Source of the DNA: a virus
Virus record (IMG/VR): IMGVR_UViG_3300017773_000140
Span: 1-23,841 of that record
Strand: one strand, 5' to 3'
Length of the DNA stretch: 23,841 bases
The notes beneath the pieces are model-generated. The model did not search any database and had not been told where the DNA came from. It worked only from the letters and a program-made list of their open reading frames with translations. The position numbers were made by a program, and so were the translations under genes. Shown one piece after another: positions 9,882-23,555 of this stretch. Each line of letters starts with the position of its first letter. Position 1 is the stretch's first letter.

Positions 9882-12170
9882 TTATGAACGCTTCTTTCTA
9901 AATCCATCTATATCATGCTTCTCTGTAAGCTGTTTTATATCCACAAGTGCTTGTCCACTATATCCAGATACCCATGATCGTCGGGCACTCGTATCAAGAT
10001 GTATATGACTCTTATATACACCAATACCAGTAATACCTGCTCTACTAGCGGCTACGATAGTGTCATCTCTTTGTGCTTCTGTTACCTTAATGTCAACAGC
10101 ATATCCAGTGTTGTGTATTGTATTACCAATAGCACCCATACGCTTTGGATTACCACTCTTCTTTGTTCTACCAGAGATGATCTCATAACTATGCCCTGTC
10201 TGCTTCTGTACTCTTATTACTCGGGCTAATAGCTTATCACTTAGATTCTGAAACTCTTTATTAGATATTACCTTAGAAGAGAAGGTTATCTGTGGTGTTA
10301 AAAAGGTTGCTTCTGGATTACCCTGAAGAGCAAGTATATCTGACATCTCTTCTTGTGTAATACCCTCATTCGTAAGATAGTCTGCTTCTCTATTAGATGG
10401 GGGTGTGGATTGTTGCTTGGCGATAATCTTATCTTTCTTTGCCTTTCTATCTTCATCACTCACTCGTAAAGCACCATACTTAACTGCTTTCTGTGTGTTC
10501 ACAGCATTCTGACTTTTAAGTACAGCACTCTCACTAAACAAACTACCCGCAAATCTCTGCATCTTAATCGCCGGCGCCATGAGTATCATCTGTAGATCAC
10601 GAGCCATTTGACATAATCTAAACATAAGATTCGCAATGTTCTCTGGTGTAAGTCTCTCGAATGAAGAGGCTAACTCAGCAACTAGCTTCTCCATATCTTC
10701 TATCATACCCCTTACAGTAGCACTTTGCATATAGTTCTGTATGTCTTGTAGTATCTTACCTGCCTTCTTCATTACAGCCATTGATGCTTTAGCAACTCCA
10801 TATACAGCACCTAGTACAGCGGCAATAGCGGCTGTGGCTGCCTTTCTAGCGGCATTCACTGCTTCCTCAATAATCTGCTTGAGTATATCTAATAGTGTCT
10901 GTAGTATGCCCTTCTGTTTAATACTCTCGGCTAACTTCTTAACATCTTTCTCTAGTAGATTCTCGACTTGACTTAATAGTGCCTTGCCTGCTTTTACAAC
11001 AGCAAATACTTTAGTTAAGTCTTCTAGTATATCGTTATAAGCACCACATAGCTTACCTGTTAAGTCTTGACCAATATTACTTGCTAGATGAAAGTCTAAG
11101 TCTCCAAGTAAATTAGCTATGATAGTAGGAAAGATAGATACAGTACCACCTAAACCAAGTAGGGCAGCCTTGTCAGATATTGATAATCCGACACTCTGAT
11201 TATATGTTAGACCCGGGGCAGTTGCTCCTAATTGATTCAATGCATTTGGATTCACGCCACTCGTTCCACCAGTAACACCACCAATAGTACCCTGTAGTCC
11301 AGTAGCACCAACTCCAGTACCACCACCACTAGTAGTAGTACTACCTGCTCCACTAAATGCTCCACCATCTCCAGTACCAATACCACCAATAGTACCAACT
11401 CCAGTACCACCAACTCCAGTACCACCAACTCCAGTACCACCAGTACCAATACTAGTGTCAGTCTCTAGATTAATACCAGTTGTATCACCTGACCCTAATC
11501 CGGCACTACCAATAACACCACTTCCACCCCCAGTACCAGTTCCAGTACCAGTTCCATTCGCTCCAGTTCCAGTACCAGTACCACCTGATCCATCAGGGAA
11601 ATCTGACGTAGATAAACCTATATCGCTTTCTTCACTACCAACAGTACCATTAATATTAGTTAAACCTGATCCACTATCGACTTGTAAGTGGCTCTGTACT
11701 GACCCCTTTCCAAGCAATCCATCAATACTATTAGATAGATTTGCTGCCGCATCTGTGTCATCCTGTCCATCTCCACTACCACCAGACCCAGACTTCTTGG
11801 CATCTGCTAAAGTGGTTGAAGTATCGTTATATTCAGTCACTGCTTCAAGCAATTCTTCGGCATTCAGGTTATTATTGCCCACAAAATCAGCAATATCCGT
11901 AACAGAAACACCAGCATTTTCCTCTACACGATCTTTTACACGAGGGTAATCATCAATCACACTGTTCAAAAGTATGTTGTTAAGCCCCTTTGTAAGTGCT
12001 ACAAGCGAGTTTCTATTGCTATTATTAAGACTAGAAGCACTCTCATTAGCGAGTTTTTGAAGGTCTAGTATCGCATCTACGAGTGCCGATGAGTCTTCTT
12101 TAAGCAGTCCACCATCTCCGGCGCCTGCTCCACTTGCTAATGGCGTAGTATTATTACATTCAATACTCAT
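9882..12170 (-). CDS. Virion-associated M15-type peptidoglycan peptidase with Gly-rich linker
   Basis: A 762-residue, four-part protein. Residues 1-190 are polar and partly helical. Residues 194-305 are a Gly/Thr/Val low-complexity linker with tandem GGTGV and GTGTGT units. Residues 355-545 are strongly helical and Ala-rich, with a hydrophobic patch near 440-470. Residues 638-738 form a peptidase M15A-like domain: ISGRTKKSG at 665-673, zinc-site motif HNTGYAVD (H686, D693), then GIGVY at 715-719, HIHLD (H724, D726) and SW at 732-733. Enzymes of this family cut D-Ala-containing peptide bonds in peptidoglycan. The gene lies two bases after gp5-like, which has no lysozyme domain, so this protein probably supplies cell-wall cutting during DNA entry. 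A basic tail (GFRKKRS) ends the protein. The fold and zinc residues are well supported; the virion location is inferred from context. Confidence 0.8.
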   Translation of the reverse strand: MSIECNNTTPLASGAGAGDGGLLKEDSSALVDAILDLQKLANESASSLNNSNRNSLVALTKGLNNILLNSVIDDYPRVKDRVEENAGVSVTDIADFVGNNNLNAEELLEAVTEYNDTSTTLADAKKSGSGGSGDGQDDTDAAANLSNSIDGLLGKGSVQSHLQVDSGSGLTNINGTVGSEESDIGLSTSDFPDGSGGTGTGTGANGTGTGTGTGGGSGVIGSAGLGSGDTTGINLETDTSIGTGGTGVGGTGVGGTGVGTIGGIGTGDGGAFSGAGSTTTSGGGTGVGATGLQGTIGGVTGGTSGVNPNALNQLGATAPGLTYNQSVGLSISDKAALLGLGGTVSIFPTIIANLLGDLDFHLASNIGQDLTGKLCGAYNDILEDLTKVFAVVKAGKALLSQVENLLEKDVKKLAESIKQKGILQTLLDILKQIIEEAVNAARKAATAAIAAVLGAVYGVAKASMAVMKKAGKILQDIQNYMQSATVRGMIEDMEKLVAELASSFERLTPENIANLMFRLCQMARDLQMILMAPAIKMQRFAGSLFSESAVLKSQNAVNTQKAVKYGALRVSDEDRKAKKDKIIAKQQSTPPSNREADYLTNEGITQEEMSDILALQGNPEATFLTPQITFSSKVISNKEFQNLSDKLLARVIRVQKQTGHSYEIISGRTKKSGNPKRMGAIGNTIHNTGYAVDIKVTEAQRDDTIVAASRAGITGIGVYKSHIHLDTSARRSWVSGYSGQALVDIKQLTEKHDIDGFRKKRS
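11256..11591 (-). repeat. Gly-rich low-complexity coding repeat
   Basis: Within the M15-peptidase gene. About 15-base units (CCAACTCCAGTACCA on the plus strand, encoding GGTGV) occur in tandem near 11395-11443. Shorter CCAGTACCAGTT units (GTGT) occur near 11530-11582. The frame is kept throughout, so this is a coding linker of variable-number type rather than a non-coding array. Confidence 0.8.
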
Positions 12171-19570: not shown

Positions 19571-20275
19571 ATGGGATTACCCAAGATTGACCTTCCATTA
19601 TTTGAGACGAAACTCGTCTCCACTGGAAGAAAGAAGATTAAATACAGACCGTTTACTGTAAAGGAAGAGAAGATTCTTCTAATTGCACAAGAGTCTGACG
19701 AAATTGATCAGGTTATACTAGCAATTAAGCAGATTATTGGTAACTGTTGCTCTAATGTTAATCCAGACGATCTACCGATGTTCGACATAGAATATCTATT
19801 AATGCAGATCAGAGGCAAGTCTGTCAACAATGTAATTGAGTTTCAGATAACTGACCCAGAGACAGAAAAACCAGTACTACTTGAGTTGGATATTGACGAA
19901 ATACAGATAGTCAAACCAAAGGGACATAGTAAAGAAATCGCTATCAGTGATGAGGCATTCATTGTGATGAAATATCCACAATTGACTGAAGTAACTACTA
20001 TGCTGAATCCAGAAAAAGAGCAAGCAGACAACATCTTTGATGTTATGCTATCATGTATTGAGTCTGTAGTAGAAGGTGATACTGTATATAATCTAGACGA
20101 CTTTACTAAAGAAGAAGTAATGGAATTTGTTGAGTCTTTCTCGACAGAGACAGTTGAAGGTGTTAAAAATTTCTTTGAAACAATGCCTGTATTGAAGTGC
20201 GAGAAAGAGTATGTTAATGCTAATGGCGATAAGAAGAAAGTGGTTCTGGAGGGTGTCGAAACTTTTTTTATCTAG
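19571..20275 (+). CDS. 26: Baseplate hub/tail chaperone gp26 (T4_baseplate family), zero-frame product
   Basis: A 234-residue protein of the T4 gp26 type (T4: 208). Pattern: GLPKIDLPLFETKLVSTGRK at 2-21, KIKYRPFTVKEEKILLIAQE at 22-41, AIKQIIGNCC near 51-60, LPMFDIEYLLMQIRGKSVNN at 67-86. In T4, gp26 is required for hub assembly. The gene sits upstream of the tape measure gene, as tail assembly chaperones do in other tailed phages. AGGAG lies eight bases before the ATG, in a 30-base AT-rich gap containing TATAAT. The gene ends at a run of seven Ts followed by TAG; a -1 frameshift there would extend it by 57 residues (see the separate entries). The zero-frame product would be the more abundant form. 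Confidence 0.87.
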   Translation: MGLPKIDLPLFETKLVSTGRKKIKYRPFTVKEEKILLIAQESDEIDQVILAIKQIIGNCCSNVNPDDLPMFDIEYLLMQIRGKSVNNVIEFQITDPETEKPVLLELDIDEIQIVKPKGHSKEIAISDEAFIVMKYPQLTEVTTMLNPEKEQADNIFDVMLSCIESVVEGDTVYNLDDFTKEEVMEFVESFSTETVEGVKNFFETMPVLKCEKEYVNANGDKKKVVLEGVETFFI

Positions 20276-20333
20276 TGTTGTGCCATATCAGCTTGGGAAC
20301 ATACTATAAGACGATGTTCGCCATGGCTCAACA
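20263..20333 (+). promoter_or_regulatory. -1 programmed ribosomal frameshift signal
   Basis: Slippery heptamer T-TTT-TTT at 20263-20269, in phase with gp26. Spacer of six bases (ATCTAG, 20270-20275), which contains the zero-frame stop. Then a hairpin: TGTTG (20276-20280) pairs with CAACA (20329-20333), one T-T mismatch, GCCAT (20282-20286) pairs with ATGGC (20323-20327). An inner stem GGGAACAT (20295-20302) pairs with ATGTTCGCC (20314-20322) with one bulged G, closing an 11-base loop. Heptamer, spacer and stem fit the standard -1 frameshift design. Confidence 0.82.
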
Positions 20334-20442
20334 TCATAAATATAGTATCGCAGAATTAGAAAATCTAATGCCATTTGAACGAGATTTATATGTTGATATG
20401 CTGTTAGATTACATAGAAGAACAAAAAGCTAAAAATCGATAA
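20269..20442 (+). CDS. -1 frame extension of gp26 (gp51-like / lambda T-like)
   Basis: After slippage the -1 frame runs 57 codons to TAA at 20440-20442, giving a 290-residue fusion with the first 233 residues of gp26. The tail reads YLVLCHISLGTYYKTMFAMA, then QHHKYSIAELENLMPFERDL, then YVDMLLDYIEEQKAKNR. This short helical, Tyr/Met-rich segment with PFERDLYVDML resembles the small second ORFs that follow tail chaperones in other phages. The frame is open from 20233. The last 39 codons could start from ATG 20323, but no ribosome binding site precedes it, which argues for the fusion. T4 gp51 also acts in hub assembly; kinship is by position and function, not proved. The stop overlaps the next ORF start (TAATG). 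Confidence 0.78.
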   Translation, partial: YLVLCHISLGTYYKTMFAMAQHHKYSIAELENLMPFERDLYVDMLLDYIEEQKAKNR

Positions 20443-20453
20443 TGGAGTATAAA

Positions 20454-20777
20454 ATGAGCGAAGAAACAAAAGCAGAAGTATTTCACCCTGCTGATACAAA
20501 TGGTGATGGACAAGTAAGTAAGCAAGAAGAAGCGTTGTATCTTGAGTTTAAACGCAAGGAACTTGAAGATGCTGATGCTATGCGTGATGCACAGCGTAAC
20601 ATGACATGGTTTGCTCTTGGTGGTTTATTACTCTATCCATTTGCTGTTGTTTTAGCATCTCTCGCAGGCTTAGATCAAGCACAAGAAACGCTAGGTGATA
20701 TGGCACCGACATACTTTGTCGCTGTTGCCGGTATCGTTGCGGCATTCTTTGGCACACAAGCAATGAAGAAGAAGTAG
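20454..20777 (+). CDS. EF-hand protein with two predicted membrane segments (holin-like)
   Basis: A 107-residue protein. Residues 14-25 (DTNGDGQVSKQE) form a perfect EF-hand calcium loop: Asp at 1, Asn at 3, Asp-Gly at 5-6, Ser at 9, Glu at 12. A charged helix (about 26-49) follows, then two hydrophobic segments (51-73, starting TWFALGGLLLYPFAVVL; 85-103, APTYFVAVAGIVAAFF), and a Lys-rich end (KKK). This two-segment layout with a basic end is holin-like, but a holin role is unproved. GGAG at 20444-20447 lies six bases before ATG 20454, so this start is preferred; an upstream ATG at 20442 overlaps the previous stop and would add four residues. It sits between the gp26 chaperone and the tape measure gene. 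Its place in a tail-assembly operon makes a tail- or membrane-entry role as likely as lysis timing. Confidence 0.72.
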   Translation: MSEETKAEVFHPADTNGDGQVSKQEEALYLEFKRKELEDADAMRDAQRNMTWFALGGLLLYPFAVVLASLAGLDQAQETLGDMAPTYFVAVAGIVAAFFGTQAMKKK

Positions 20778-20786
20778 GAGTAGATT

Positions 20787-20903
20787 ATGGACCCAGTAGA
20801 AGCGTGGAACTCGTTATCATATTTTGATGGTGTACTATTCACTGTCTGGTTAGGCACTATGTATTACGGAAAAAACTTAATCGATCAATGGTTCGGAAAA
20901 TAA
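20787..20903 (+). CDS. 38-residue membrane-type peptide upstream of the tape measure gene
   Basis: ATG at 20787, TAA at 20901-20903, with GGAG at 20777-20780 six bases upstream of the start, a good ribosome binding site. The product reads MDPVEAWNSLSYFDGVLFTV, then WLGTMYYGKN and a short polar and aromatic end (LIDQWFGK). The middle (about 13-28) is hydrophobic and aromatic and could enter a membrane. No family is recognised. It lies 9 bases after the EF-hand gene and 6 bases before the tape measure start, so it is part of the same operon. Confidence 0.65.
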   Translation: MDPVEAWNSLSYFDGVLFTVWLGTMYYGKNLIDQWFGK

Positions 20904-20909
20904 AAACAA

Positions 20910-23555
20910 ATGGCTGAAGATACACGACCCGATGCTGACTTTAGCGAGTCGGCACCACAAACAGCAAAAGAGTCAATGACTCCAGTTGCTGATGCGATAA
21001 AAGAAAGTATCGAAGCCAGAAAGCAAGAGGTCGGAGATAAAAAAGAGAAGAAAGGTCTTGGTAAATTCTTTTCTTTTGGCGACTCAACAAAAACTATTCT
21101 TGAGTCTATCGAAAAGTCGATGTTTATGCAAACATCTTTCTTGGAAGAGATCAACACTAACCTAAAAGAATCAAACTTATTCGATAGAGAGTCAGCAGAA
21201 GATGCTGAAAGAGCCGCTAATCTTGCTAGAGTTGGTGAGGATATAGCTACACCAGGAGCCCCTGAAGAGTCTAAGCCTGAATCAGAAGATAAAAATCTAC
21301 TTGATAAACTCAAAGATTCACTTGGTGATCTAAAATCGAAGGCATCTGATGCCGCTTTCGGTAAAGAAGAAGACAGTTTCTTCAAAAAATTCCTTAAAAC
21401 TGGCGCAACAGTACTTGGTGGTGGTCTTATTGCCGCAGGGTTCACTGATAGTATAACCAATAAAGCATTAAAGAAAGTAGGTGTAAACGAAGAAACTGCT
21501 GACAAAGTATCTAAGACTGCAGGCGATTCAGTGGGAGTTGGTACTTCAGCCGGATTGACTGCAATGGCACTCAATAAGTTTGGGTTGCTCGGTAAAATCG
21601 GATTGAAAGTTGGTGGTCTTAAAGCGTTTGCTACAGCCGCAGTTGCAAAAGTAACTTATGATGCAATTGGTGAGTTAGATGTTGACGATGATGGAAAGAT
21701 TCTAGGAATAAAGAAAGAACTTGTTCAGGGTATTGGTGGTGGTCTTGCCGGCATAGCTACCTTTATGGGAGCAGGTAAAGCATTTGGTGCTGTTGGTCTG
21801 GCACTGAAAGCAGGAATGGGCGCAGTCAAGAGTAAACTTGGTGCTAATGTTAAGGCGCCTAAAGTTAAGATACCTGGAATGCAGGGTGCTAAAGTACCTG
21901 GCAGTGTACCCAAAACACCAACTCCGAAACCACCAACTGTCAAAGCATTAAAGGCTCCCACAGCAAAATTACCTAGTGCTACTACCATTACCACAAGTGG
22001 TAGAGCAACTGCGGGTCGACCGCAAACAGTCAAGGGCGTAATGCAAGCCATGACAAAAATAAATCCATTGACAGCACTCAAATACGCTAAGTTTTTTAAG
22101 ATAGGCGCACCTTTAGCGGCTGTCATACCTGCTCTTATCGAACCTGCAATGGCTATCTATAATGACGAACCCGATTCAGTTATTAGAAAGCAGACTGCAG
22201 GCGCACTTGGTTCTATTGGTGGTGCGGCACTTGGTACTATAGCAGGCGGTAGTTTGGGTACTATGATGTTCCCGGGTCTTGGATCAGCTATTGGTGGTGG
22301 TATTGGTGGATTACTTGGCGCACTTAGTGGTGAGTGGTTAATCGAAAAGATGACAGGCGCATTGTTTGATGGTGATGACTTAGACGAGAAAGAAGTAAAG
22401 AGTGAGGTTAAGAAAGATACAAAAGTAAGAGGTGTCCCTAAAGGTGGTGCGCCAAAAGAACCAGAATCTAAATCTGTCTCTGCTAAAGTAGGCGCTAAAA
22501 TCACTGATCTTGGTGATATGGAACCGACTAGCGAACAGAAAGTTGCTGATGCTCAAGTAAAGGCTGATGATGCAGGTAAAGCACTATCAGATTTTGAGTC
22601 TACTGCTAAGTCTGCTAAAACTGTTCAGAAAGCAGATGAATTTGGTGACATGATTGATACAGTTGTCTATGATGATGCCGCAGAGCAAGCACAGTTCGAC
22701 AAATTAAGTGATGCTAAGTTTGATGCTGATTATGCTGTAGAAGATGCGACATCAGAGATGATTACTGGAGATTCATTCGATGTCCCGGGTCAATTTGAGA
22801 AGTTAGTGTTCTTACAAGATAAAGGAGTCTTACCTGAGGGCAAGAGTCAGATAGTGATGGGCAAATTCGTAGATGGTCCTCTATCAGGTATGACACCAGA
22901 TGAAGCCATTTCGATGTATGTTACACAAGAAGCATCTACTCAAAAAGCCTCCGCAGAATTTAAGGCTGGCGATAAGAAGGCTATACCTAAGATAGCACCA
23001 GACATGACTAAGCCAAAAACAGCAGATGGTAAAATACCCGCTAAAGTGACACCTGCAGAGGCGTTTTTGCCGAATAATGTTGCAACTGGTGATGATATGG
23101 GGCTATCTGTAGAAGAAGCAGAGAAGCAACTTGCTGATGCGAAAGGGGCGTTTGCTCAAGCAGAAGAAGACGGCTCTATATATGAAGGGTTTAGACAAGA
23201 TGAACTTCAAGCAGACATACAATTCGCTGAAAAAGACCTTGCAGATGCTAATGCTCGTGCGGCAGCCTCTGGTGACTTTGTTAAGAGAAAGCCTGAGCCA
23301 GTGAAAGGTATCATGGAAACTTCAGGTCTTCAGTCTGCTCCAGAAAAACTAATGACTAAAGCTAAAGTAATATCAGAAGAACAATCAGACAAAGACAAAC
23401 AAGCATCAATGGCAGTTCAAAATAATATTAGTCAAGGTGGCGATACATCTAACGTGACAACTGTTGGTGGAAACACTTCTAACGTCAACATCATCAAGGG
23501 TGGTGGTGCAAGTTCACTCGCTAACGCTCACCTACCAGTACCACAGTCAATCTAA
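20910..23555 (+). CDS. Tape measure protein (gp29-like)
   Basis: An 881-residue protein (T4 gp29: 590). Evidence is its length, composition and place after the chaperone gene with the frameshift. The N-terminal 170 residues are charged and helical. Hydrophobic Gly-rich stretches follow at about 165-185, 275-307, 395-420 and 431-472 (the last reads GSIGGAALGTIAGGSLGTMM and continues with repeated GG pairs), a glycine-zipper style fit for membrane insertion. A Pro-rich segment (about 315-350) separates the first from the second half. The C-terminal 300 residues are acidic, helical and Ala-rich, ending in a Gly/Asn stretch and LPVPQSI. Tape measure proteins set tail length and help DNA enter the cell; at about 0.15 nm per residue this one would suit a tail near 130 nm. 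No enzyme domain was recognised. The start has only a weak GGA signal. Confidence 0.78.
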   Translation: MAEDTRPDADFSESAPQTAKESMTPVADAIKESIEARKQEVGDKKEKKGLGKFFSFGDSTKTILESIEKSMFMQTSFLEEINTNLKESNLFDRESAEDAERAANLARVGEDIATPGAPEESKPESEDKNLLDKLKDSLGDLKSKASDAAFGKEEDSFFKKFLKTGATVLGGGLIAAGFTDSITNKALKKVGVNEETADKVSKTAGDSVGVGTSAGLTAMALNKFGLLGKIGLKVGGLKAFATAAVAKVTYDAIGELDVDDDGKILGIKKELVQGIGGGLAGIATFMGAGKAFGAVGLALKAGMGAVKSKLGANVKAPKVKIPGMQGAKVPGSVPKTPTPKPPTVKALKAPTAKLPSATTITTSGRATAGRPQTVKGVMQAMTKINPLTALKYAKFFKIGAPLAAVIPALIEPAMAIYNDEPDSVIRKQTAGALGSIGGAALGTIAGGSLGTMMFPGLGSAIGGGIGGLLGALSGEWLIEKMTGALFDGDDLDEKEVKSEVKKDTKVRGVPKGGAPKEPESKSVSAKVGAKITDLGDMEPTSEQKVADAQVKADDAGKALSDFESTAKSAKTVQKADEFGDMIDTVVYDDAAEQAQFDKLSDAKFDADYAVEDATSEMITGDSFDVPGQFEKLVFLQDKGVLPEGKSQIVMGKFVDGPLSGMTPDEAISMYVTQEASTQKASAEFKAGDKKAIPKIAPDMTKPKTADGKIPAKVTPAEAFLPNNVATGDDMGLSVEEAEKQLADAKGAFAQAEEDGSIYEGFRQDELQADIQFAEKDLADANARAAASGDFVKRKPEPVKGIMETSGLQSAPEKLMTKAKVISEEQSDKDKQASMAVQNNISQGGDTSNVTTVGGNTSNVNIIKGGGASSLANAHLPVPQSI

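Follow-up and report, generated by a model that had tools for sequence, protein, structure and literature searches.

The window analysed here, the whole 23,841-nt stretch of IMG/VR virus record IMGVR_UViG_3300017773_000140, carries a gp26-like gene on the plus strand at 19571-20275. Its 234-residue product matches PF12322 (T4_baseplate, E=4.2e-56), the same model matched by T4 gp26, as well as phrog_150 (E=2.2e-59), and is probably the short form of a tail assembly chaperone (TAC-N). The gene ends in ...GAA ACT TTT TTT ATC TAG, which places the heptamer T_TTT_TTT (20263-20269) in the zero frame, one codon ahead of the TAG stop (20273-20275). The -1 frame is free of stops from 20233 to 20439 and closes at 20440-20442, so that slippage on the heptamer would add a tail of 57 residues (20269-20442 with its stop codon). 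A Shine-Dalgarno-like GGAGGG (20248-20253), a probable 5′ stimulator, lies 9 nt upstream of the slippery site. Downstream, an outer stem pairs 20275-20285 with 20324-20334 around a single T-T mismatch, and an inner stem, seen in the MFE fold and variable among relatives, pairs 20294-20302 with about 20313-20322; together they fold at about -18 to -20 kcal/mol. The original prediction of a programmed -1 frameshift had placed the end of gp26, the seven-T run, the -1 frame and its 57 codons exactly where we find them, and the hairpin it described, beginning about 6 nt past the heptamer, is also present.

A tail tube gene (phrog_45, E=3.6e-34) lies directly 5′ of gp26, and an 881-residue ORF at 20910-23555 (+) occupies the position of the tape measure gene, with a weak match to a tape measure family (phrog_794, E=1.5e-3). 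Two small ORFs separate the -1 tail from the 881-residue ORF. The first (20442-20777, 111 residues) lies between the chaperone and the tape measure position and combines two probable membrane segments with an EF-hand-like loop (DTNGDGQVSKQE; PF13202, E=0.001); from its sequence it looks like a holin-like protein with a calcium-binding motif. The second (20787-20903, 38 residues) adjoins the tail genes and matches phrog_9048, a family of unknown function, at E=1.4e-10. Elsewhere in the window, a minus-strand gene at 9882-12170 encodes a 762-residue protein that contains a long repeat rich in Gly, Thr and Val and matches an M15-type peptidase at its C-terminus (phrog_25247, E=4e-12).

Scans of IMG/VR together with phage records gave 251 loci with 217 distinct gp26 proteins, which fall into 99 clusters at 70% identity; further scans with Vibrio and Aeromonas gp26 as queries added few new loci. 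An in-frame T_TTT_TT[C/T/A] (131, 83 and 1 sequences, respectively) lies near the stop in 215 of the 217, and the heptamer is kept in all 99 clusters. The two sequences lacking it come from an RB49-type phage and an Acinetobacter phage, both of which encode the long form in a gene of its own. The gap of one codon between heptamer and stop is the same in 204 of the 215. Beyond the stop, the -1 frame stays open for 155-203 nt in every complete case (212/212), against a median of 22 nt for the +1 frame, and the next ORF begins no more than 30 nt from the stop of the tail in all 97 clusters that have one (in 76 this ORF is long or is cut by the contig end). Four phages read separately, KVP40, Sinorhizobium phiM7, Rhizobium RL2RES and S-MbCM6, share the heptamer and the -1 arrangement. 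In Methylophilales phage Melnitz-2 the stop abuts the heptamer (TTT TTT TAA; L084, 3187-3196), a compact variant of the site.

The heptamer is not a by-product of codon usage. Its first Phe codon is TTT in 215 of 215 sequences, always preceded by T, compared with 71% TTT (1715/2428) at other Phe codons, and only 11 of 235 internal Phe-Phe pairs read T TTT TTY. The -1 frame itself evolves as a protein: substitution is 0.38-0.48 at its third positions and 0.05-0.20 at its second positions, and the first 16 codons beyond the slip show the same pattern. A lone homopolymer at a frame junction might by itself suggest a chance T run or a sequencing or assembly error. The same junction recurs, however, in isolate genomes and in many assemblies, 215 distinct sequences in all, which excludes sequence error and leaves this explanation with a negligible probability.

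What the -1 frame encodes is evident from T4. Taken by itself, the tail, a gp51-like TAC-C domain, matches phrog_634 (gp51, 'baseplate hub assembly catalyst') with E=1.1e-23, nearly the score of T4 gp51 itself (E=1.2e-23), and a profile built from the tails matches residues 207-244 at the C-terminus of T4 gp51, albeit within a small target set. The record of phage KVP40 already remarks that its small ORF resembles the C-terminus of T4 gp51. Residues 1-201 of T4 gp51 also match PF12322 (E=3.9e-52), and the protein matches phrog_150 from end to end; it is therefore a gp26 paralogue joined to a tail of the -1 type. When gp26 and the tail of the window are fused virtually, the match to phrog_150 runs unbroken over 1-278 and scores 222.5 bits, compared with 202.2 for gp26 alone. 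Since T4 gp51 is a gp26-like domain plus this tail, the predicted fusion would correspond to gp51 (TAC-NC) and gp26 to TAC-N. These matches support the proposed tie between gp26, gp51 and the lambda G/GT scheme.

AlphaFold models gp26 with confidence (pLDDT 90.7), and the best-probability match of the model in the PDB, the HK97 chaperone 2ob9 at rank 3, is not significant (E=0.54), so that comparison of gp26 gives no confirmation of a TAC fold. In sequence searches of the PDB, neither the gp26 alignment nor the tail alignment recovered a relative. The original prediction had also called for comparing the tail with T4 gp51; the sequence profile bore out the relationship, and the fold search of the PDB, made with a low-confidence model of the tail, returned no matches.

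The slippery site is flanked by two further elements. An SD-like tetramer begins 13 nt 5′ of the heptamer in 85 of 99 clusters, and the Glu codon at this site is GAG in 46 of 71 cases versus 15 of 62 at other Glu-Gly pairs (Fisher p=4e-6). On the 3′ side, a scan of 60-nt windows across the 99 cluster representatives placed a strong folding excess at one position alone, immediately 3′ of the heptamer (mean z -2.58, 62 of 99 below -2), with z-scores of about 0 away from it. The excess persists (mean z -2.80) against sequences recoded synonymously so that the protein of the -1 frame is unchanged; a control region gave -0.06. Within the clade of the window, 89.9% of cells in the outer stem are paired (columns 13-23 with 62-72 of alignment A2), compared with 25-43% when the arms are slid, and four pairs covary. 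In the stem, TTG...CAA becomes CTG...CAG jointly (33 and 15 of 54 rows), both substitutions being synonymous (Fisher p=6e-10, uncorrected for phylogeny). We took the pairing figure from a count on the named helix in place of RNAalifold, which recovered 5 of the 11 outer-stem pairs from the unweighted 54-sequence alignment, probably because a minority of sequences has another local hairpin. Some relatives and cyanophages do form a different, more local hairpin at the same starting distance. The signal thus looks tripartite, with an SD-like element 9-10 nt upstream, the heptamer, and a predicted stem from about 6 nt downstream.

Frameshift signals of the dnaX and IS911 type have the same layout, with an SD-like element about 10 nt 5′, a heptamer and a downstream stem. 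They differ in using A_AAA_AAG where the window has a poly-T (Phe) heptamer, and the gene is unrelated. The nature of these elements also bears on whether the fusion could arise during transcription, by polymerase slippage on the T run. Runs of seven Ts are indeed present in the clade of the window. Transcriptional slippage usually requires longer runs, however, and 131 of the 215 relatives have TTTTTTC, where the run stops at six Ts and its codon phase is exactly X_XXY_YYZ. An SD-like element suits ribosomes, not polymerase, as does a conserved RNA stem placed at the spacing typical of ribosomal signals, and we regard the transcriptional route as very unlikely.

Most database records annotate the second ORF as a separate small gp51, which would be translated by stop-start coupling (TAGTG or TAATG) or from an internal start. 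The original prediction had noted an internal ATG in the -1 frame and overlooked a GTG at 20275 that overlaps the zero-frame stop (TAGTG); an ATG or GTG occupies that site in 50 of 215 relatives. In about a third of the relatives an ATG lies no more than 9 codons from the slip, which makes a degree of independent initiation possible there, and cyanophage records annotate an internal ATG start. The second ORF nonetheless has no conserved start, and the GTG itself is not conserved. No ATG, GTG or TTG occurs in the first 18 codons in 26 of 99 clusters, and 48 of 99 have no ATG there. Candidate starts have SD matches of at least 4 in only 14 of 215 relatives, and the SD-like element of the window, with about 21 nt between it and the GTG, is poorly positioned to direct a start of the second ORF. 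Moreover, conserved residues sit 5′ of the annotated starts, and independent initiation has no need of an invariant heptamer. A separately initiated gp51 is therefore improbable. The -1 tail is unannotated in the records of Aeromonas phages CC2 and AsFcp_4 and Synechococcus phage S-MbCM6 (L086 3223-3391, L088 3220-3387 and L256 1525-1703), and many cyanophage records begin gp51 at an internal ATG; in both cases the frameshift appears to have misled the annotation.

The frameshift reading of the original prediction thus has several lines of support: the heptamer, the open -1 frame and the protein that it encodes are conserved, the stem shows compensatory synonymous changes, folding peaks sharply beside the heptamer, and no alternative start is conserved. 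Judged from the sequences, gp26 and the -1 ORF are very probably one gene with two products, made by -1 ribosomal slippage at T_TTT_TTT. Most ribosomes would terminate at the TAG at 20273 and release the 234-residue TAC-N. A minority would slip back one nucleotide on the heptamer, with tRNA-Phe re-pairing on UUU in both the P and A sites, aided by GGAGGG 9 nt upstream and the stem-loop about 6 nt downstream. These ribosomes would read on to 20439 and produce a 290-residue TAC-NC with a helical C-terminal domain homologous to the T4 gp51 C-terminus. If the roles are those of lambda gpG/gpGT (PMC5009743), TAC-N would bind the tape measure protein and coat it through the N domain, whereas the long form would use its C domain to recruit tail tube subunits. 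From the signals, conservation, covariation and homologies observed, we infer that frameshifting occurs here, that it is a minority event, and that the products act as chaperones.

Frameshifting in T4-like phages is not a new idea, and the original prediction does not stand as a novelty. The 2022 article of Vladimirov, Gautam and Davidson (Virology 566:9-15) is said to identify TAC genes in T4-like phages, and its abstract reportedly describes frameshifting as conserved in several T4-like groups, with T4 using genes 26 and 51. In the passages of two later papers that cite it, the work is credited with poly-T -1 frameshift signals in the TAC-N genes of T4-like phages (PMC12846349) and with the short gene and fused long gene of T4 (PMC10885494). 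Since TAC genes and poly-T signals had already been reported in T4-like phages, the window is a well-supported further case. Our analysis shows its conservation across a large T4-like group with a complete set of predicted control signals.

A 2016 review of recoding describes the G-T frameshift as widely conserved, with T4 excepted (PMC5009743). As in lambda G/GT, the window has a short and a predicted -1 extended tail chaperone encoded at one locus, here beside a putative tape measure gene. The slippery sequence here is T_TTT_TTY and not that of lambda, sequence homology is undetectable, and a downstream stem and SD-like element are present in contrast to the lambda site. In phage Adele (Vandenendeviridae/Andersonviridae), TAC-N likewise ends in a conserved poly-T motif, GTTTTT, where a -1 frameshift takes place (PMC12846349); the phage families and the motif differ from those here.

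The T4 genes 26 and 51 encode the same proteins as the window, with TAC-N in the gp26 family and TAC-NC as gp51. T4, RB49 and Acinetobacter phages have two separate genes, whereas the window and most relatives have one gene with a frameshift; no separate gene 51 with its own gp26-like N domain was found at the window locus (23.8 kb fragment), which has the frameshift arrangement only. In an unrooted tree of N domains, the T4-type gp26, T4-type gp51 and frameshift genes are each split off by a branch (support 97/94, 100/100 and 94/89, respectively). KVP40 and CC2 belong to the family of T4, yet have the frameshift arrangement of the cyanophages. The simplest reading is that frameshifting was replaced once by duplication in the T4/RB49 line; because the tree is unrooted, a single replacement is something we infer. 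The broader proposal is that the three-part signal, whose stem kept a fixed spacing while being rebuilt in different forms, within the limits set by coding, among marine phages, cyanophages and further lineages, is ancestral in T4-like phages and was replaced once by the T4/RB49 duplication. We consider that proposal evenly poised between right and wrong.

With these findings, T4-like phages of a large and abundant marine group belong firmly to the scheme of frameshifted tail chaperones. The frameshift accounts for the puzzling 'gp51' of 40-60 residues that stands beside gp26 in databases. Among the relatives, the stems and slippery sites also form a natural series in which the evolution of a frameshift signal inside coding sequence can be measured. 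Finally, our data suggest that T4, the textbook phage, is the exception, in which one recoded gene was split into two.
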